Positions 1-12,701 of a DNA stretch of 64,000 nucleotides are shown here, piece after piece. Position numbers and translations under genes: made by a program. This DNA is from Alcaligenaceae bacterium (lineage in GTDB: Bacteria > Pseudomonadota > Gammaproteobacteria > Burkholderiales > Burkholderiaceae_B), in NCBI GenBank assembly GCA_013416395.1, contig JACCEP010000001.1:248001-312000 (forward strand), in the 5' to 3' direction. The notes under the pieces are model-generated. The model ran no database searches. It was not told where the DNA came from and worked only from the letters and a program-made list of their open reading frames with translations. Each line of letters begins with the position of its first letter. Position 1 is the stretch's first letter.

Positions 1-679
1 CGGCCAGAAACTGGAACTCTATATGTCGAGGTCGTTCAATGAGTTTTTCCAGATAGAGCGACGCCTCGCCAAAGCAGCGCTGGGACACTGCAGATGCCGT
101 TCGCCATGCTGCCTCAAGCCCATGGGGGCCAGCGACCGGCATCATGCCAATACCGCCACCACCTGTTGCCGGCTTAATCAGCACAGGATAGCCAACCATC
201 TCTGCTGCAGCCGCGACCACGCTCATATCATTAGGCAGAACCTCCGAGCTGGCCGTCTGCGGCATTCCCAGACTCTTCATAAAACGCCGTGCACCCGTTT
301 TCTCACCCAGTTGCTCTATCCAGCGAGGGTCAGGCCCAATAAAACACATACCCGCCTCTTCCACTCGGCGGGCGAACCCAGCATTTTCTGACAAGAACCC
401 ATATCCTGGATGAATGGCCTGCGCACGCGACTGCAAGGCGATATCGAGTAATGCATCCTGGTTTAGGTAAGTCGTGGCAGGCTCATTGCCTGGCAGCAGG
501 TAAGCCTGAGTAGCTTGCTGAACATACGGCAATTGTGCGTCGATCTCCGAATACACCACAACCGACTCCAAACCCAATGTATTGAGCGCTCGTAGAATGC
601 GCGCTGCAACGGCACCTCGGTTTGCGATTAATACCCGGTTCGGAAGCGCTGGAGCTTTCCATGCCAAAGCTGAGGTCAC
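1..679 (-). CDS. Biotin carboxylase subunit of an acyl-CoA carboxylase (3' part beyond window)
   Basis: About 226 codons are visible and the gene continues past base 1. The product is the ATP-dependent biotin-carboxylating subunit that works with the carboxyltransferase at 3824-5368. Seen: an N-terminal Rossmann-like biotin carboxylase domain with PNRVLIANRGAVAARI near residues 12-27, the family signature HPGYGFLSEN, then FIGP, and an ATP-grasp glycine-rich loop ATGGGGIGM. The start is GTG at 679, two bases beyond the TAA of the upstream ligase gene, with GGGAG about 8 bases ahead, so translation is probably coupled. Whether a BCCP (biotin carrier) domain is fused at the C-terminus cannot be seen. 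The substrate acyl-CoA is unknown; acetyl-, propionyl-, methylcrotonyl- or geranyl-CoA are all possible for this family. Confidence 0.93.
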   Translation of the reverse strand, partial: MTSALAWKAPALPNRVLIANRGAVAARILRALNTLGLESVVVYSEIDAQLPYVQQATQAYLLPGNEPATTYLNQDALLDIALQSRAQAIHPGYGFLSENAGFARRVEEAGMCFIGPDPRWIEQLGEKTGARRFMKSLGMPQTASSEVLPNDMSVVAAAAEMVGYPVLIKPATGGGGIGMMPVAGPHGLEAAWRTASAVSQRCFGEASLYLEKLIERPRHIEFQFLA

Positions 680-680
680 G

Positions 681-2771
681 TTAACACTCCCTTTTGATTA
701 CAACCGCATCGACCACCACTGGTGGCGCAGTACGCGACACCAGTACCGGGTTTGCATCAACCGACAACAATGCACCCTGCTGGCTGGCGAACCAGTCCCC
801 CAATCGCTGCACCATGCCGGCAAGAACCTGGGTATCAACAGCAGGCAAGCCCCGAGTTGCTGCGAACCCCCGTGCCATAAAAAGCTTCCCAATGGCGTCC
901 TGCGCCTGCTGCCGAGAAAACGGTGCTACGAGAAACTGCGTATCTTTCATTACCTCAACCAAAACACCACCCTGTCCCACCATGATGACGGGACCGAACA
1001 TGTCATCCCAATGTGCACCGACTGCCAACTCGAAATCGCTACTGCATTGCTGCGCCACGAGCATGCCCTCAAACTCTACGCTTAGGCTACGCAAAATGGA
1101 CGTGTAATCATTCCAAGCCTGCCCCATCTCGGATATATCACGCACTCCCAACCGGACAAGTCCGTGGTCCGACTTATGCGTTACGGCTGCCGACACCCCC
1201 TTGAGAACAAAAGGCGCTTGCATGGACTTGTAGGCAGACTCAACATGATCAACATAACGACAGTACTGATGCGCCACAACAGGTAGTCCTGCCTCCGCGA
1301 GCAGCGCAAGACTATCGGGCTCACTCAGGGCAACCCCTGCCCCCGATTGCCGATCGCTCGTGATCATCCCTGACTGGGGCAGTGCCCTTCCCTTGCTATA
1401 TTCCGCCAGCAGCGCAAGCCCTCGCATAGCACGAAACTCGCTAGCGAAGACTGGGATGTCATACTTGTAAAATGCTGAGGCAACCCAATCTTGAGCAGCA
1501 CATACAGCCACCGGCACTCCAGTCTGCTCGACAAAATCTGCCGTCTGCGCAGCAAAACCGGACATGTCGTAACCTTCACCTCCGATGGGAAAACCAACAA
1601 AAAAGGCTTCTGCGGCACCACTCTTAGCGACTGCCCGTAATGCATCGCCGTATATGGCAGGCTGACCAAGTAGTGCAGTGGTCATGTCGATGGGGTTACG
1701 GGCCGCAACATACGAAGGGAGCACGGCGCGCAAAGCATGCACGTCATGGTCGGAGAATTCCGCTGCCTGCATTCCATTCTGCTCCATGGCATCGGCCGCC
1801 AGTACGCAGGTTGCCCCTGAATTGCTGATAGCAACGACCCTCCTTCCTTTTGGGCGTTCTCGCCGCTCGAAAAGTCGAGCGTATTCCACCAGTTCGTGAA
1901 AGTCCTGCACTCGAATGATATTGCGCTGGCGGAGAAATGCATCGGCCAACGCATCTTCGCTAGCCATTGCGCCGGTATGTGAGCTCGCGGTTAGCTGTCC
2001 TGTTTGCGTACGACCCGATTTCACAGCTAGGATCGGTATGTCGCGCTCTGTTGCAACACGCGCAGCCTCAGCCAGCACGGCCGGATGTTGCAGCGACTCG
2101 GCATACATAAGAACAAGCCGCAAGGAAGCATCATCAAGCACACCCCGCACGGTTTCAGCAACACTGATATCAGCTTCGTTTCCGGTTGCGATCAAATATC
2201 GGACTCCCAACCCTTGACGACGCAGCCCACCGTAGACGATAGCTGCCCCCGCGCCACTCTGGCTCACAATCGCAATGGAACCATCCTGCGGTGGGCACTC
2301 ATTGATCATTGTGGAAAAATTCAGAATTGCGCCCGACTGAAAATTTGCTATGCCCTGAGTGTTCGGCCCGAAAATCCTTAAGCCTCCTTCTTGCGCGCGA
2401 GTCACCAACGCCTGCTGTGCGCGGCGACCCTCTGGACCCAGCTCGGCAAACCCGGACGAATACACAACGGCACCGCGCGCACCTACTTCAATACACTGCC
2501 CTAAGGCCGCCCCGACCTCACTACCAGGCAGAGCAACAACGACAACATCCGGAGGGTGGGGCAAGTCAGCCAGGCTGGGATATGCGCGCAAGCCCTGTAC
2601 CTCGGCACGGTTTGGATTAACCGGGTAGATTTCACCCGTAAAACCATACCTCTGCATATAGTGAATGGGCCGCCCACCTGCCTTGAGTGGGTTGTCGGAC
2701 GCACCCATAATGGCCACGCGCCGGGGAGATAAAAGTGCCAACATATCCAGGGACGATGTGCAGTTATTCAA
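681..2771 (-). CDS. Acyl-CoA synthetase (NDP-forming), acetate-CoA ligase/succinyl-CoA synthetase fold
   Basis: A 696-residue fused alpha/beta type NDP-forming acyl-CoA ligase. It probably activates a carboxylic acid to its CoA thioester with ATP. Domains in order: CoA-binding Rossmann domain (SPRRVAIMGASDNP near residues 15-28), the two flavodoxin-like ligase domains with the phospho-histidine region SSHTGAMAS, and a C-terminal ATP-grasp domain (about residues 480-690). The start chosen is TTG at 2771, overlapping the Bug gene's stop region, because the N-terminus then aligns with the paralogue at 28491-30614; ATG at 2744 is the alternative. It lies between a Bug receptor and the biotin carboxylase in the sigma54-type operon, so the imported acid is plausibly activated here and then carboxylated. 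That order of steps is inference. Confidence 0.9.
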   Translation of the reverse strand: MNNCTSSLDMLALLSPRRVAIMGASDNPLKAGGRPIHYMQRYGFTGEIYPVNPNRAEVQGLRAYPSLADLPHPPDVVVVALPGSEVGAALGQCIEVGARGAVVYSSGFAELGPEGRRAQQALVTRAQEGGLRIFGPNTQGIANFQSGAILNFSTMINECPPQDGSIAIVSQSGAGAAIVYGGLRRQGLGVRYLIATGNEADISVAETVRGVLDDASLRLVLMYAESLQHPAVLAEAARVATERDIPILAVKSGRTQTGQLTASSHTGAMASEDALADAFLRQRNIIRVQDFHELVEYARLFERRERPKGRRVVAISNSGATCVLAADAMEQNGMQAAEFSDHDVHALRAVLPSYVAARNPIDMTTALLGQPAIYGDALRAVAKSGAAEAFFVGFPIGGEGYDMSGFAAQTADFVEQTGVPVAVCAAQDWVASAFYKYDIPVFASEFRAMRGLALLAEYSKGRALPQSGMITSDRQSGAGVALSEPDSLALLAEAGLPVVAHQYCRYVDHVESAYKSMQAPFVLKGVSAAVTHKSDHGLVRLGVRDISEMGQAWNDYTSILRSLSVEFEGMLVAQQCSSDFELAVGAHWDDMFGPVIMVGQGGVLVEVMKDTQFLVAPFSRQQAQDAIGKLFMARGFAATRGLPAVDTQVLAGMVQRLGDWFASQQGALLSVDANPVLVSRTAPPVVVDAVVIKREC

Positions 2772-3756
2772 CCTTTACCCCCGCACGGGTGACAACATCC
2801 TTCCACTTAACAAGTTCGTTATCGACGAAGGCTTTGTACTCAACCAGATTCATTTGACCAGGCTCGGTGCCGTTCTGCTCAAACCAAGGACGAGCTTTAT
2901 CACTGTTCATACTGGCCTGGGCAATCGTATTCAATTTTTCGGCCACATCTGCAGGCATGCCTGCAGGACCATAAAAACCAATCCATGTAATTGCCTCATA
3001 GCCCGGAATACCTTGTTCAGCAATCGTTGGCACATCAGGCAGCGCTGGACTGCGTGTCTTGGATGTCACGCCCAGAGCCTTGACCCGATTGTCACGAACA
3101 TAGGGAGCCATTGTGGCTACATCATGAAAGAGTGCAGGAATCTGTCCACCCAACAAGTCTGTCAAAGCTGGTGCAGCACCTTTGTATGGCACGTTGGTCA
3201 TGGTGAGCCCAGTTTCCAGCTTGAACATTTCACCAGACAAGTGAGTCGCCCCACCAATACTGGAAGAGCCAAACATTACGCCCCCAGGCTCTTTCTTTCC
3301 CCACTCGATAAACTCTTGGACGTTAGATACCGGCAAGTCCTTGTTGACCACCAGCAGATTGGGTGTGGTAGCCATCAGAGCGAGTGGCGTAAAGTCTTTG
3401 CTGGCATCGTAAGGGAGATGGCTGCGCACAGCTGGGTTGATGACATGATGTGTGGCGGACACTAACAGTGTGTAGCCATCTGGCTTGGCCCTGGCTACGT
3501 ACTCTGTGCCGATCTGGCCACTGGCCCCAGCGCGGTTTTCAACTACGATTGTTTGACCCACCTGTTGTTGCATATCTTGTGCCAGTCGCCGAGCAATGAC
3601 ATCTGTCATGCCGCCTGGCGGAAAGGGCACAACAATCGTAACAGGCCGTTGTGGCCAAGACGACTCGCTAGCCGAAGCAGGCACTGACATAGCCACAACG
3701 ACGCCGGATATAGCGATGACAGCCAGTCGGCTAACGTGCTTTGTATAAATCTTCAT
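2764..3756 (-). CDS. Bug-family (TctC-like) periplasmic solute receptor
   Basis: A 330-residue tripartite tricarboxylate transporter receptor homologue. ATG at 3756 was chosen because AAGGAG lies about 9 bases upstream and a signal peptide follows directly (MKIYTKHVSRL, hydrophobic stretch, ASA cleavage region near residue 29). Family marks: WPQRPVTIVVPFPPGGMTD, then NRAGASGQIG, KPDGYTLL, and the PYKGAAPALTDLLGGQI block near the middle. Bug receptors bind small carboxylates or related acids in the periplasm. The membrane partners TctA/TctB are not encoded nearby, which is common for Bug genes. The gene sits 67 bases after the carboxyltransferase and just before the CoA ligase, suggesting that its ligand is the pathway substrate. 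Confidence 0.95.
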   Translation of the reverse strand: MKIYTKHVSRLAVIAISGVVVAMSVPASASESSWPQRPVTIVVPFPPGGMTDVIARRLAQDMQQQVGQTIVVENRAGASGQIGTEYVARAKPDGYTLLVSATHHVINPAVRSHLPYDASKDFTPLALMATTPNLLVVNKDLPVSNVQEFIEWGKKEPGGVMFGSSSIGGATHLSGEMFKLETGLTMTNVPYKGAAPALTDLLGGQIPALFHDVATMAPYVRDNRVKALGVTSKTRSPALPDVPTIAEQGIPGYEAITWIGFYGPAGMPADVAEKLNTIAQASMNSDKARPWFEQNGTEPGQMNLVEYKAFVDNELVKWKDVVTRAGVKVE

Positions 3757-3823: not shown

Positions 3824-5368
3824 TTAAGGCCTAATTCCAAATGAACACTGACCTGGCTCGCGAAGTCGCACTGCCAGATTAACGAACTCCACCAGCCGCT
3901 CACGTGTCTCACGCGGGTCAATAATGTCTTCGATCGCAAATGCCTCAGCACTGCGAAATGGCGACGTCAAACTACGCACTCGCTGCTCAATCTCGGCACG
4001 CATGCGCACAGGATCATCAGCGCCTTCAATCTCTGCTTTGTAGGCCACTTCAAGTCCTCCCTCGATAGGTAAGGAGCCCCAATTGGCTGAAGGCCAGGCA
4101 TAGCGAAAGTTATGGCGGCCCATATGCTGGTGGGCCGCCGCTGCCACGCCATATGCCCGACGAATAATGACTGAGCACCATGGCACGGTCGTCTGATAGA
4201 CGGCTGCCAAGGCCCGCACTCCCGCCCGCATTACGCCCGATTTTTCAGCGGCCACACCAATCTGAAAACCGGCAATATCCACCAGGTTGACGACGGGCAA
4301 ATGAAAAGCCTGCGCAAGATCCACGAATCGCGTAAATTTCTCGGCGGTCGCACGATCCCAGCCTCCGCCGTAGTGATAGGGATCGCTGGCCACTACAGCC
4401 ACTGGCCATCCGTCAATACGTGCTAAACCTGTGACGACGGCCTTTCCCCATCGACGTCCAATCTCCATGAACGAACCCTCGTCAACCAACGACTCAATAA
4501 TGGAACGAACCTTGTAAACCACACGAGGATCACGGGGAATTGCGGACAGCAGCCACTCTTGGTCTGCTACCTTCACTGGCTCATCAAGGCGCGGTGGTAA
4601 TTCAAACACCGAGGTAGGCAAATAAGATAGGAAGCGTCGTGCGCACGCGAACGCTTCAGCTTCCGAGTTCACTTCATCGTCGACGACACCATTGCGTGCA
4701 TGAATCTGACTACCACCCAACTCATTCTTTGTGACGTTTTCGCCGATTCTTGCCACTACCGGCGGGCCAGCGTTAAAAAGCTGAGACGTGTCCTTAACCA
4801 TGACTGAGTAATGGCTGGCCGCAACCCGGGCGGCCCCCATGCCGGCCACCGAACCGAGCGCAAGAGATACCACCGGCACCAGTGTCATATTCTCCACAAC
4901 ATGCTGCCATACTCTCATGGTGGGTATCAGCGTATGCCCCTTGGTTTCAATATTGCGTACAGAACCTCCACCGCCAGTCCCATCTACCAGGCGTATCACG
5001 GGCAGACGCAAGTCTCCCCCCATTCTTTCGGCATATACAAGTTTTTCGCCAACTGCACCGTCGTTGGCCCCGCCGCGCACAGTAAAGTCGTCCCCCATCA
5101 GCACAACTGGGCGCCCATCAACGCGGGCACGACCAACGATAAGATTGGAGGGTGTCACCCCCAATACCTTCCCACTCGAGTCATAGTGCCCAGTTCCTGC
5201 CAAGCCGCCGATTTCCTGGAAGGAATTAAGATCGGCGATCGCCTCAACACGTTCTCGAACCGTAAGTTTGCCGGCATCCTTGTGGCGCTTCACCTTTTCC
5301 GCGCCACCCAGTTGCAATGCAAGTTTCTTGCGATACGTCAATTCATCAATTTCAGGCTGCCAGGACAC
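3824..5368 (-). CDS. Acyl-CoA carboxylase carboxyltransferase (PccB-like)
   Basis: A 514-residue carboxyltransferase of the crotonase-like acyl-CoA carboxylase beta family, which moves CO2 from carboxybiotin to an acyl-CoA. Seen: an N-terminal region with KLTVRERVEAI, the glycine-rich turn GTGGGGSVRNIETKG near residues 131-145 where family members bind CoA, and a C-terminal half with GGGWDRATAEKFTRFVD, LVDIAGFQIG and RRAYGVAAAAH. Length matches PccB-type subunits (about 510). The start is GTG at 5368 with AAAGGAG ahead; an in-frame extension to 5404 lacks a ribosome site and overlaps the promoter. It is the first gene of the operon, about 30 bases from the predicted sigma54 transcription start. 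The acyl-CoA substrate is undetermined. Confidence 0.93.
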   Translation of the reverse strand: MSWQPEIDELTYRKKLALQLGGAEKVKRHKDAGKLTVRERVEAIADLNSFQEIGGLAGTGHYDSSGKVLGVTPSNLIVGRARVDGRPVVLMGDDFTVRGGANDGAVGEKLVYAERMGGDLRLPVIRLVDGTGGGGSVRNIETKGHTLIPTMRVWQHVVENMTLVPVVSLALGSVAGMGAARVAASHYSVMVKDTSQLFNAGPPVVARIGENVTKNELGGSQIHARNGVVDDEVNSEAEAFACARRFLSYLPTSVFELPPRLDEPVKVADQEWLLSAIPRDPRVVYKVRSIIESLVDEGSFMEIGRRWGKAVVTGLARIDGWPVAVVASDPYHYGGGWDRATAEKFTRFVDLAQAFHLPVVNLVDIAGFQIGVAAEKSGVMRAGVRALAAVYQTTVPWCSVIIRRAYGVAAAAHQHMGRHNFRYAWPSANWGSLPIEGGLEVAYKAEIEGADDPVRMRAEIEQRVRSLTSPFRSAEAFAIEDIIDPRETRERLVEFVNLAVRLREPGQCSFGIRP

Positions 5369-5385
5369 AGAGAACTCCTTTGATA

Positions 5386-5405
5386 GTGTCTTCAATATAA
5401 ACACT
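5386..5405. repeat. Dyad repeat copy 1 (candidate activator site at the operon start)
   Basis: GTGTCTTCAATATAAACACT, an interrupted palindrome with GTGT/ACAC arms. It matches the copies at 5467 and 5507 in its core. It overlaps the predicted transcription start of the minus-strand operon, so a protein bound here would more likely block than activate. Inferred role only. Confidence 0.6.
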
Positions 5406-5409
5406 ACAA

Positions 5410-5425
5410 AGCAAAACTCGTGCCA
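5410..5425 (-). promoter_or_regulatory. Sigma54 (-24/-12) promoter of the carboxylase operon
   Basis: Read on the minus strand the site is TGGCACGAGTTTTGCT, a full match to the -24/-12 consensus TGGCACG-N4-TTGCW. The predicted start lies about 12 bases below the GC, near 5399, giving a leader of about 30 bases before the GTG at 5368. The divergent gene encodes a sigma54 activator, and two candidate enhancer sites lie about 77 and 117 bases upstream. Confidence 0.85.
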
Positions 5426-5466
5426 ACATTGCTTTCCCTACACCACGAGGTAAACTCACACAAATA

Positions 5467-5486
5467 CCGTCCTCAATAAAGACACT
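5467..5486. repeat. Dyad repeat copy 2 (candidate upstream activator site)
   Basis: CCGTCCTCAATAAAGACACT, which shares the core GTCyTCAATAaarACAC with the copies at 5386 and 5507. It starts 81 bases from copy 1 and 40 bases from copy 3, i.e. roughly 8 and 4 helical turns, so copies 2 and 3 would lie on the same DNA face. It is centred about 77 bases upstream of the predicted sigma54 start, a normal enhancer distance. Confidence 0.65.
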
Positions 5487-5506
5487 CAATAGCTAGCAAG
5501 GACACT

Positions 5507-5526
5507 ATGTCTTCAATAACGACACG
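5507..5526. repeat. Dyad repeat copy 3, overlapping the activator's first codons
   Basis: ATGTCTTCAATAACGACACG, with TGTC/GACA arms. Its first three bases are the start codon of the divergent regulator, so the site is embedded in codons 1-7. It could serve as the distal enhancer for the operon and as an autoregulatory operator for the regulator. The role is inferred; the repeat itself is directly visible. Confidence 0.65.
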
Positions 5527-7162
5527 ACAGCAGCCTCATATGTTGGGTGTTCTAGTACTGAATCACGCCATGCAACCCATCTGGAGACATGGTGCCGCCT
5601 GTGATGATGATCTCTGTGAAGCTGCAGTAAAAGCACTGGCGGCCGAGGCGAAGTATGCTGACACCGATCAGACGCTGCTCGAGGTTTCTCTGCCTGGAGG
5701 TCGCCAATACTTGGCTGCTGTTGTGCAAGACGCCAGTAGTACCCTGATGCTGCTCCGATCCGCGGATGACGCAGATCCTTTGTTTTCATTTATTGCAACT
5801 GTGCCATTCGCTGCCGAGATATTTCGCTATATCATCAGCAATCCATATCAAGCAATGACCGTCGCGGACTCGAAAGGCAAGCTACGCTTTATCAGTGAAG
5901 TGCATGAGCGGTTTCTGGGCCTGGAACCCGGGAGTGGAGCGGGACGTAACCCTGCCGACATCATCCCTAACTCACGGCTTGCTGAAGTTGTTCGCTCAGG
6001 AAAAGCAGAAATTGCGCAGTTACAAACTATGCACGGAGTCACACGGGTGGTGAATCGTCTCCCCATCCACCGCCATGGAAAAGTAATCGGCGCCATAGGC
6101 CAGGTACTATTCAAAGAACCGGAAGAAGTCTTCAGATTACATCGCACAGTGGCACAACAGAGGGCCAAAAATGAGCCTGCCGCTCAGGCCACGACAGGCG
6201 ATTTGCTACCGTTAATCGGCCGTAGCGCTCCCATGCAGAGGCTACGGCGCGAAATTGAAACAGTTGCTCATCTTGACATTCCCGTCCTAATTCTTGGCGA
6301 AAGCGGCACAGGCAAAGAGTTGGTGGCACAAGCCATCCACAACAAGGCCCATCTTGAAGATGACTCTCCACTAATCAGCCTCAATCTTGCCGCGCTTCCG
6401 GCCACGCTGCTCGAAGCGGAGTTGTTTGGGTACGAGCCGGGCGCGTTTACCGGGGGAAGCCGAAAAGGGCAACGGGGCAGAATCGAACAGGCTGAGGGTG
6501 GCACGCTTTTTCTTGACGAAGTCGGTGATATCCCACTAGAGATGCAAGTGAAGTTGTTGCGGGTGCTGGAAGACAGACAGGTACAGAGGCTAGGCGGAGG
6601 TACAGGCCAGCGCGTCAATTTCAGACTAATTACAGCAACCAACCGCCGCATGCAACAGCAGATCGACGCCGAACGCTTTCGCCTTGACCTCTACTACCGC
6701 ATCAGCGGGGTAGTGCTGCACATACCAGCGCTCCGGCATCGCCGGGAAGACATCCCCGAACTGCTGAACCACTTCGTACTGTCATTCTGCCGACGCAACA
6801 ACATGCCCGCACCCTCCATCAATAACGAAGTGGTGCGCTATCTAGCCAGCCAAGACTGGCCAGGCAATGTACGTCAACTGCGACAGCGTATTGAGGAGGC
6901 ACTGGTATTTTGCGATCTACGCGAGCTGCACGTCAGCAACTTCGAACGGTACAGTGATGATGACGCGGCTAGGCCATTTAATAGCCCCCCCCAAAACACT
7001 CAGCCTAAGCACGAGCAAGATTCCTTAAACCCCGGAAGCCTGAAAGATCTCGAATATCAGGCTGTCTTACAAGCTGTTGCGCAATGCGACGGCAACAAAA
7101 AACGCGCGGCCGAACAGCTGGGCATCTCTCGCTCGCATCTTTATAAAATACTCACTCGTTGA
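5507..7162 (+). CDS. Sigma54-dependent activator with PAS, AAA+ and Fis-type HTH domains
   Basis: A 551-residue bacterial enhancer-binding protein. The N-terminal region (about residues 1-110) is not recognised. A PAS-like domain follows (about 115-215, around YQAMTVADSKGKLRFISEV). The AAA+ domain spans about 235-465 with Walker A GESGTGKE, Walker B GGTLFLDEVGD, and the sigma54-contact loop as GAFTGG instead of the usual GAFTGA. A Fis-type helix-turn-helix ends the protein (NKKRAAEQLGISRSHLYKIL). There is no phospho-receiver domain, so it probably senses a ligand. AAGGA precedes the ATG closely. It is divergent to the carboxylase operon, which has a consensus sigma54 promoter and three dyad repeats, one overlapping this gene's start. 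It is most likely the operon's specific activator. Confidence 0.93.
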   Translation: MSSITTRQQPHMLGVLVLNHAMQPIWRHGAACDDDLCEAAVKALAAEAKYADTDQTLLEVSLPGGRQYLAAVVQDASSTLMLLRSADDADPLFSFIATVPFAAEIFRYIISNPYQAMTVADSKGKLRFISEVHERFLGLEPGSGAGRNPADIIPNSRLAEVVRSGKAEIAQLQTMHGVTRVVNRLPIHRHGKVIGAIGQVLFKEPEEVFRLHRTVAQQRAKNEPAAQATTGDLLPLIGRSAPMQRLRREIETVAHLDIPVLILGESGTGKELVAQAIHNKAHLEDDSPLISLNLAALPATLLEAELFGYEPGAFTGGSRKGQRGRIEQAEGGTLFLDEVGDIPLEMQVKLLRVLEDRQVQRLGGGTGQRVNFRLITATNRRMQQQIDAERFRLDLYYRISGVVLHIPALRHRREDIPELLNHFVLSFCRRNNMPAPSINNEVVRYLASQDWPGNVRQLRQRIEEALVFCDLRELHVSNFERYSDDDAARPFNSPPQNTQPKHEQDSLNPGSLKDLEYQAVLQAVAQCDGNKKRAAEQLGISRSHLYKILTR

Positions 7163-10837: not shown

Positions 10838-11659
10838 TTACTTTTTCACACCAAAACAGTTTTCAAGCCGGGGAAACTCTCCGTTGCGCACCTCATTGGC
10901 ATACTGCTCCACTGCCAGACGTATCTGCGAACCAATATCGGCAAATTGTCTGGCAAACTTGGGGATGCGGTCGCCGCTCAGGCCAAGAATGTCTTCTGTG
11001 ACCAGAATCTGGCCATCACATGCCGGCGATGCCCCAATACCAATGGTTGGAATATCAAGCGTTTCTGTAATGCGCCGCCCCAAAGCCTCAGCCACACCCT
11101 CAAGAACAACCCCAAATGCGCCCGCCTGCTGATGCGCAATGGCGTCCTGCAGAATACGTTCGGCCGACTCGTCGGTCATGCCCTGGGCCTTGAAGCCCCC
11201 CATGGTATTGACGTACTGTGGCATTAGCCCTACGTGAGCGAGCACCGGTATGCCGCGTTCAACCAGAAACCGTGTCGTTTCGGCCATGGTTACGCCGCCT
11301 TCCAGCTTGACACCGTCGGCGCCGCTGGCGGCCAGAATGTGCGCAGCGCTGGCAAATGCCTGCTGAGGAGATTGCTGGTAGCTACCAAACGGCATATCGG
11401 CAATAATGCAGGCATGCTCGGTAGATCGCACAACCGCGGCGGCATGGGCAGCCATTTGTTCAGCCGTAAACGATAGTGTATCTGGCAAACCGTAAGCCAC
11501 CATGGCAGTCGAATCGCCGATTAGTATCATGTCCAGCGCCTCATCCAGCAAGCGCGCGAAAGGGGCGCTATACGACGTCAGGGCGGCAATTTTGCGCTCG
11601 CCTTTGTAAGCCATAAGTTGTGGCACGCTTATACGTTTTGCTTGGCGGTGAACACTCAT
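10838..11659 (-). CDS. panB: 3-methyl-2-oxobutanoate hydroxymethyltransferase
   Basis: A 273-residue PanB, the first committed step of pantothenate synthesis: 2-oxoisovalerate plus 5,10-methylene-THF gives ketopantoate. Seen: KIAALTSYSAPFARLLDEA and ILIGDSTAMV near the N-terminus (the metal-binding Asp region), GVKLEGG, PVLAHVGLMPQ, and GIGASPACDGQILV near the C-terminus. ATG at 11659 is preceded by AAAGGAG at ideal spacing; the longer open frame to 11779 has no support. panC is not adjacent. An 8-bp inverted repeat (GGTGCGCG/CGCGCACC, 10801-10828) lies just below the stop but has no clear U-tract. Confidence 0.96.
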   Translation of the reverse strand: MSVHRQAKRISVPQLMAYKGERKIAALTSYSAPFARLLDEALDMILIGDSTAMVAYGLPDTLSFTAEQMAAHAAAVVRSTEHACIIADMPFGSYQQSPQQAFASAAHILAASGADGVKLEGGVTMAETTRFLVERGIPVLAHVGLMPQYVNTMGGFKAQGMTDESAERILQDAIAHQQAGAFGVVLEGVAEALGRRITETLDIPTIGIGASPACDGQILVTEDILGLSGDRIPKFARQFADIGSQIRLAVEQYANEVRNGEFPRLENCFGVKK

Positions 11660-11804
11660 GTAGATCTCCTTTACATAGATGGCCCGACGGAGCCTGTAGA
11701 TATATGCTACCTTGCATTGCAGCAATCGTATAACCAAAGATATTGCGGCCTGACACAGCCCCGTGTCCACCTGCCGCACTCACGTGTATCAGCAAGGAGG
11801 AAAA

Positions 11805-12644
11805 ATGTCAGTGCATCCAAACATGATCGAATTCCATGACGGTCGCAGCGCTCCGCAACTTGGGTTCGGAACATGGCAGATCGATGACGACAAGGTCACT
11901 TCCGTAGTACAGACCGCCATCGAGGCCGGATACCGCTCCATCGACACTGCGGCCATCTACGGCAATGAAGTCGGCGTAGGCAAGGGTATATCACAGTCGG
12001 GGGTTGCACGTGATGAGCTCTTCATCGCGACCAAGCTCTGGAATGATCGCCACGGCCATGACATCTCGCGAGCAGCTTTCCAGGAAAGCCTGGAAAAGCT
12101 TGGCCTCGACTATGTTGACTTGTACCTTATCCACTGGCCTGTTCCAAAAAACGACCTTTATGTACAAGCCTGGGAGGCCATGATCTCACTGCGCGATGAA
12201 GGCCTGGCCAAATCTATTGGCGTGTGCAACTTTAATATTCCGCACTTGGAGCGCCTGCTGGACGAAACAGGCGTGTTGCCCGTGGTCAACCAGATCGAGC
12301 TGCACCCCAACTTTCAACAGGCCGCCCTGCGTGAGTTTCATGCAGAGCACGACATCATCACCGAGGCGTGGAGCCCATTGGGCCGGGGCAGGCTCTGGGA
12401 AGACGCCACCCTAAAGCAGATCGCGGGCAAGCATAAGCGCACTGCCGCTCAGGTTTTGCTGCGCTGGCATCTGCAGCTTGGCAATATGGTGATCCCAAAG
12501 TCAGTAACACCCAGCCGTATTGTTGAAAACTTGCAGTGCTTCGATTTCGAACTTGACGATCATGACATGGCAGCCATCGCAAGCCTGGATAAGGCCGACG
12601 GGCGCAGCGGCCCCGACCCTGACCTGTTCCATTTGCCTAAATAG
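11805..12644 (+). CDS. Aldo/keto reductase (2,5-diketo-D-gluconate reductase-like)
   Basis: A 279-residue NADPH-dependent aldo/keto reductase. The catalytic tetrad is visible: Asp and Tyr in YRSIDTAAIYGNE, Lys in FIATKLWND, and His in YLIHWP. The C-terminal cofactor segment has VIPKSVTPSRIVENL. Length fits the family. ATG at 11805 follows AAGGAGG closely (11794-11800); the upstream in-frame extension to 11763 is not needed. It is divergent from panB with a gap of about 145 bases. The physiological substrate is unknown; detoxification of aldehydes or keto compounds is the usual inference. Confidence 0.93.
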   Translation: MSVHPNMIEFHDGRSAPQLGFGTWQIDDDKVTSVVQTAIEAGYRSIDTAAIYGNEVGVGKGISQSGVARDELFIATKLWNDRHGHDISRAAFQESLEKLGLDYVDLYLIHWPVPKNDLYVQAWEAMISLRDEGLAKSIGVCNFNIPHLERLLDETGVLPVVNQIELHPNFQQAALREFHAEHDIITEAWSPLGRGRLWEDATLKQIAGKHKRTAAQVLLRWHLQLGNMVIPKSVTPSRIVENLQCFDFELDDHDMAAIASLDKADGRSGPDPDLFHLPK

Positions 12645-12701
12645 CATCGCCACTACAAGGTTGATGCAACCAGGTCACCCCTCTCGTCTGACCTGGCTGA
12701 C

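Follow-up and report, generated by a model that had tools for sequence, protein, structure and literature searches.

At the divergent Ps/Pr region of the TOL plasmid, XylR switches catabolic promoters on and lowers the divergent transcription of its own gene (PMC3469447). SoxR of Bacillus thuringiensis likewise regulates its own promoter negatively, in a manner given as not known (PMC4941409). Binding sites of related design have been reported for QseF/GlrR, with the consensus TGTC-N10-GACA (PMC8745638), and for activators of Desulfovibrio, whose TGT and ACA half-sites stand 9, 11 or 12 bp apart (PMC4641369).

In the 64,000 nucleotides of an Alcaligenaceae genome analysed here (the window), the gene for a sigma-54 activator diverges from an acyl-CoA carboxylase operon, and three copies of a 17-bp dyad lie in the region between them. 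Comparison with related loci makes it probable that the carboxylase operon is switched on by a dedicated activator acting at two upstream dyads, and that this activator represses its own gene by way of the dyad that lies on its start codon.

The regulator

The regulator gene (5507..7162, plus strand) encodes a protein of 551 aa that domain searches identify as a sigma-54 activator. An N-terminal region of about 100 residues is followed by a PAS-like region (117-198), an AAA+ domain (236-404), the lid (410-485) and a Fis-type HTH (512-547); the Pfam matches are PF00158 (7.8e-62), PF25601 (2.3e-19) and PF02954 (4.5e-9). The protein joins an AAA+ sigma-54 interaction domain to a Fis-type HTH, and a further hallmark of such activators, a -24/-12 promoter with upstream dyad enhancers, is present as judged from sequence only. 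Among solved structures, residues 117-198 match PAS chains, one labelled as a histidine kinase (1.2e-7) and one the cytoplasmic PAS domain of CitA (5.9e-7), and Pfam gave no match to a receiver domain in the regulator. Assignments to GlrR (NCBIfam model, 223.1 bits against a cut-off of 763) and to NifA (TIGR01817, 271.9 bits against 528.85) were rejected.

The sigma-54 contact loop motif of activators is GAFTGA. The corresponding loop of the present regulator is GAFTGG, not GAFTGA, and the other seven of the eight carboxylase-linked regulators compared for this loop have GAFTGG, GAFTGS, GTFTGG or GTFTGA. Those paralogs whose loop was found by the pattern carry GAFTGA or GAFSGA.

The acyl-CoA carboxylase operon

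The operon is read from the minus strand and begins with the gene of an acyl-CoA carboxylase carboxyltransferase (beta) subunit (3824..5368). Its start is most likely the GTG at 5368, with AAAGGAG at 5375-5381, and not the GTG at 5404 given in the list of open reading frames. The product matches PF01039, its best solved match is a propionyl-CoA carboxylase beta chain, and a methylmalonyl-CoA decarboxylase alpha subunit (TIGR01117) was rejected at 297.8 bits against a cut-off of 998.8. Next on the same strand come a Bug/TctC-type periplasmic binding protein (2764..3756, domain searches), an acetate--CoA-ligase-type acyl-CoA ligase (681..2771, domain and family searches) and the first part of a biotin carboxylase (1..679), which leaves the window. 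The complete biotin carboxylase gene (positions 11274-12680 of the larger locus, L112) has matches to PF00289, PF02786 and PF02785, and after it lies a BCCP-like ORF of 103 aa (L112:11003-11314), recognized by eye from an ESMKMEI-type biotinyl motif.

Carboxyltransferase, biotin carboxylase and BCCP, the last by motif only, are thus found together, so that all the components of an acyl-CoA carboxylase are encoded in the operon. The first-pass annotation had described a carboxylase/Bug/CoA-ligase operon; these genes are as it stated, but the operon is longer, with the biotin carboxylase and the BCCP-like ORF to the left of the window. A related locus, L092, has the matching gene order, then biotin carboxylase, thiolase and 3-hydroxyacyl-CoA dehydrogenase. 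Past the BCCP-like ORF, on the same strand, are genes for an NMT1-like binding protein and for a TRAP permease in which DctM and DUF3394 are fused (L112:6782-10765), possibly parts of the same uptake system. The rpoN gene is found on this contig too (L112:2835-4385), near the operon and some 13 kb to the left of where the regulator gene begins.

Promoter and dyads of the intergenic region

A sigma-54 promoter, TGGCACGAGTTTTGC, occupies 5411..5425 on the minus strand with zero mismatches to TGGCACG-N4-TTGC, and base 5410 also fits TTGCW. Of 52 matches in the window at up to 2 mismatches it is the sole one with none, in agreement with the full-consensus minus-strand -24/-12 element first reported for this position. 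Carboxylase-linked orthologs have a -24/-12 element of like sequence in the same orientation. Computed from the -12 element, the predicted transcription start on the minus strand is 5399, 12 bases downstream of the -12 C.

This predicted start places the centres of the three dyads, which have no strand, at about +5, -77 and -117. Dyad 1 (TGTCTTCAATATAAACA, 5387..5403) spans the predicted start, dyad 2 (CGTCCTCAATAAAGACA, 5468..5484) is the predicted proximal enhancer, and dyad 3 (TGTCTTCAATAACGACA, 5508..5524) is the predicted distal enhancer and begins on base 2 of the regulator ATG (5507). Two dyads at enhancer distance, the distal one on the regulator start codon, and a third over the transcription start had all been proposed in the first-pass annotation; these positions are borne out here and recur in relatives, though not in all of them. 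The dyad form is TGTC-N9-GACA, 17 bp long at 5387, 5468 and 5508, or 17-19 bp when written as GTGTC-N9-GACAC. The more specific GTCyTCAATA-N3-ACAC starts at 5388, 5469 and 5509 on the plus strand, with spacings of 81 and 40 bases, and its three copies in the window compare with 0 in 100 shuffles of the window. The three dyads form one direct-repeat family with the spacing originally noted, but the length of 20 bp given at that time has to be shortened to 17-19 bp.

A ribosome-binding-like AAGGA (5498..5502, plus strand), read from the sequence, precedes the regulator gene, for which no sigma-70-like promoter was found by consensus. No IHF site was found between promoter and enhancers in the window at up to 2 mismatches to the IHF consensus; by that consensus, IHF-like matches at 1 or 2 mismatches occur in six of ten carboxylase-linked loci. 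The tandem dyads show weak helical phasing (Rayleigh p 0.02 to 0.27). A chance origin of the dyads was rejected from shuffles of the window and of related loci and from the ranking in the palindrome scan described below.

Conservation beside related regulators

Relatives of the regulator were sought with its N-terminal 224 residues in overlapping sets of 268 family, 399 order, 11 further-family and 369 class genomes, and the group was found in 23 of the 268 family genomes (E up to 1.0e-17). From the 30 N-terminal matches at E up to 1.0e-17, four near-copies (both in genome G071, the second in G102 and the second in G077) were left out of the large loci; genome G919 was also left out of the locus set, and a fragment, L086, was dropped before counting. 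The 33 loci examined in detail count L087 and L088, near-copies of L096, which were omitted from the palindrome scan (31 loci).

A divergent sigma-54 element at 0-2 mismatches is present in all 33 loci (at 2 mismatches in four), taken as the best element per locus from a stretch of about 260 bases and with no chance control of its own. Dyads on the enhancer side (at most one mismatch) number 42 in the 33 loci against 2.5 expected, the maximum of 200 dinucleotide shuffles being 7; at least one is present in 29 loci and four have none. When all 256 four-base half-sites were scanned with spacers of 0-14, a set of 3,840 palindromes, the top two ranks were taken by GTGT-N11-ACAC and TGTC-N9-GACA, which are two views of one dyad, both for exact matches and when one mismatch was allowed. 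For the TGTC half-site, spacer 9 leads all spacers from 0 to 14. In the control set, 32 loci whose activators are more distant, a single site was found (in L023). The first-pass annotation had staked its proposal on the dyads being conserved beside orthologous regulators; this was searched for and found, and the layout is evidently real, since it recurs in related bacteria.

The eight carboxylase-linked regulators form one side of a tree branch (93/81) in a tree of 32 rows that excludes L078, L143 and L144. Several relatives face other acyl-CoA operons, with genes for CoA transferase, acyl-CoA ligase, enoyl-CoA hydratase, SDR and acyl-CoA dehydrogenase (examples taken from annotation, with the proteins of L110 judged by eye). 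At L078 (genome G213), which is included in the upstream-site counts, the regulator match is interrupted by TGA and the divergent sigma-54 element persists. On the Salipiger abyssi plasmid pPABY4 (L150, 1903-3333) a relative of the regulator has a plasmid-borne rpoN as its divergent neighbour.

Linkage to the regulator and search for further targets

Carboxyltransferase homologues were sought in the 268 family genomes, and 30 loci were scanned from the 64 rows listed. All six loci in which the carboxyltransferase gene lies beside the regulator have both the sigma-54 element and dyads, as against 0 of 24 (sigma-54 element) and 1 of 24 (dyad) at loci with no adjacent regulator, as judged from the coordinates of the N-terminal regulator matches. 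By this comparison the dyads follow the regulator, not the carboxylase genes.

Held-out loci came from plasmid records, of which 29 matched, 15 were listed and 11 were taken; L153 repeats the plasmid locus of L106 and was excluded from the counts. Two of them, L143 (Cupriavidus necator N-1 pBB1) and L144 (Cupriavidus sp. EM10), have a carboxyltransferase 75-76% identical to that of the window and together contain 7 sites against 0.17 expected from single-base shuffles; the sigma-54 promoter of L144 has 2 mismatches. Five of the eight other held-out loci have a site, with 7 sites in total against 0.67 expected (single-base shuffles); one of these eight, L146, resembles L087 and is not independent. 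These counts indicate that the dyad is strong among carboxylase-linked loci and less strictly kept elsewhere.

In the genome from which the window was taken, the pattern TGTCYTCAATANNGACA has 34 matches at up to 2 mismatches, compared with 7 for a reversed-pattern control, and this excess may reflect sequence composition. None of the 31 matches outside the three in the window has a sigma-54 element at up to 1 mismatch within 300 bases, and the three best of them have none at up to 2 mismatches within that distance. Among the other 28, a sigma-54 element at 2 mismatches is found near five and a further dyad within 200 bases near four, and 25 lie inside an open frame of at least 600 bases on at least one strand. 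As the 31 outside matches lack a near-consensus sigma-54 element, a wider regulon in this genome is unlikely, and the regulator seems to serve a single target.

The dyad on the start codon

Ten carboxylase-linked regulator loci, two of them held out (L143 and L144), were compared around the predicted start of the regulator gene. The start of L095 was moved to a GTG 42 bases upstream, and other unannotated starts were chosen by alignment and are thus predicted. In seven of the ten, the distal dyad (at most one mismatch) starts on base 2 of the predicted start codon, as in the window, and the register is the same with ATG, GTG or TTG. The start-codon dyad fits at 2 mismatches in L094 and L095, and none was found in L080, where two enhancer dyads are kept. 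The register stays fixed while the distance to the promoter varies, the dyad lying at -117 to -120 in four loci and at -151 to -152 in three; these three (L079, L143 and L144) have separate sites at -95 and -118 besides.

The last half-site of this dyad forms codon 6 of the regulator gene, which is ACA in nine of the ten genes. Among the other threonine codons of the ten genes ACA makes up 13% on average and 0% in L092, L093 and L079; the chance of the codon-6 pattern is about 1e-7, a figure that ignores common ancestry. The window's own codon 6 is not telling, because ACA accounts for 35% of the other threonines of its regulator. From the recurrence of ACA despite the mean of 13%, selection on the start-codon dyad most likely acts on the DNA.

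Sites at +5 to +15 (at most one mismatch) are present in five of the ten loci against 0.07 expected from single-base shuffles, and such start-site dyads look real but optional. Alignment of 26 sites from the ten loci gives TGTCyTCAatRAnGACA, in which the information content of the inner letters, which had no part in the choice of sites, reaches 1.26 bits (C at position 7). The ideal palindrome read from this consensus is TGTCCTCA-N-TGAGGACA.

Proposed mechanism

Comparison across the loci shows that the regulator, the 17-bp dyad and the divergent -24/-12 promoter belong together. Activation of the operon by the regulator is well supported, and from the placement of the sites we infer both a role for the start-site dyad and the negative autoregulation that had been suggested in the first-pass annotation. 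The regulator would be a one-component activator that senses a metabolite through its N-terminal/PAS region. It would assemble on dyads 2 and 3 and loop to the sigma-54 holoenzyme at 5411-5425, driving transcription of the carboxyltransferase, Bug, CoA ligase, biotin carboxylase and BCCP genes. Any promoter of the regulator gene further upstream would be separated from the first codons by dyads 2 and 3, dyad 3 being on the start codon itself, and the same occupancy should therefore also block transcription of the activator. Dyad 1, over the start, would probably serve as a brake on the operon at high regulator level, and this is the least certain step.

More tentatively, dyad 3 may have two jobs fixed by codon selection: placed inside the first six codons of the activator gene, it would act as distal enhancer of the operon and, in one binding event, shut off the activator gene, either as a roadblock to transcription or by blocking initiation. 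Together with the start-site dyad this would give a concentration-limited switch, on at low occupancy, and self-limited and damping the operon at high occupancy; we find this plausible yet short of probable.

Alternative explanations

The dyads could be ordinary enhancers serving activation only, with dyad 3 meeting the start codon merely through the shortness of the intergenic region. The upstream sites of the ten loci are indeed enhancer-like, most of them lying at -75 to -95 and -117 to -126, and the two enhancer dyads of L080, which stand there with no start-codon dyad, agree with this view. It accounts poorly for the three loci that have one site at -118 and another exactly on the start codon, and for the seven that keep the start-codon register while the promoter distance shifts, and we regard it as unlikely, if deserving of attention. 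The register could instead be conserved at the protein level, the dyad being a by-product of selection for a short N-terminal peptide ending in threonine. Although the opening six residues agree closely in nine of the ten loci (S, C or P second, T sixth), the sixth is encoded by ACA in all nine, even where no other threonine of the gene is, and like dyads stand in non-coding DNA of the same regions; of all the readings considered this is the least credible, and we give it almost no weight.

A different DNA-binding protein encoded elsewhere, a repressor or a second activator, might use the dyads as its operators. The position of the start-site dyad resembles that of a repressor operator, and the tie between regulator and dyad comes from sequence comparison; against such a protein, the dyads track the regulator rather than the carboxylase genes (6 of 6 loci against 1 of 24) and recur beside related regulators that face other operons, and it is very improbable. 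As for dyad 1, it might be a positive element, an extra loading site or a leader signal, in place of a brake, and sigma-54 activators can work from downstream, as described for rocG (PMC4941409). Its overlap with the very start, where polymerase would be expected to be hindered by a bound protein, and its absence at up to one mismatch from five of the ten carboxylase-linked loci both speak for the other side, so that a positive role has perhaps a modest chance. We thus favour the dedicated activator that would drive the operon from dyads 2 and 3 and limit its own synthesis.

For a group of sigma-54 activators that often lie beside acyl-CoA genes, the analysis thus predicts the operator, the promoter and the target operon. 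The candidate operator in the activator's first codons is visible as codon choice, and its enhancer and autorepression functions could be separated by synonymous changes.

Comparison with known systems

As far as searched, the regulator group is undescribed. The regulator-site pair was not found in the literature searched, which covers few subscription journals and is no proof of unpublished status. The best family match of the regulator is PrdR (NCBIfam NF041552), over residues 103-548, but at 337 bits against a membership cut-off of 795 it falls far below, and assignment to that family was rejected.

The dyad has relatives among described sites. The TGTC and GACA half-sites are shared with QseF/GlrR, from which the present dyad differs in its spacer (9 in place of 10; PMC8745638); QseF belongs to a two-component system, and the regulator here has no Pfam match to a receiver domain. 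The present dyad has as its outer frame TGT-N11-ACA, an arrangement reported for Desulfovibrio (PMC4641369), although the regulators and targets are others and the comparison is of half-sites only.

In architecture, XylR is also a sigma-54 activator that lowers its own divergent transcription, as proposed here; it differs in its aromatic sensor, and the available part of that account does not mention a start-codon operator (PMC3469447). SoxR is a divergent sigma-54 activator of a catabolic operon as well, but its site, 54 bp upstream of the soxB start, is an inverted repeat of 11 bp interrupted by a 7-bp gap, and a start-codon operator is likewise not mentioned in the part of the text available (PMC4941409). 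Set beside what these sources describe in the parts available, the architecture of the present locus is of a known kind, that of XylR, SoxR and QseF, and the predicted operator on the start codon is its distinctive trait.
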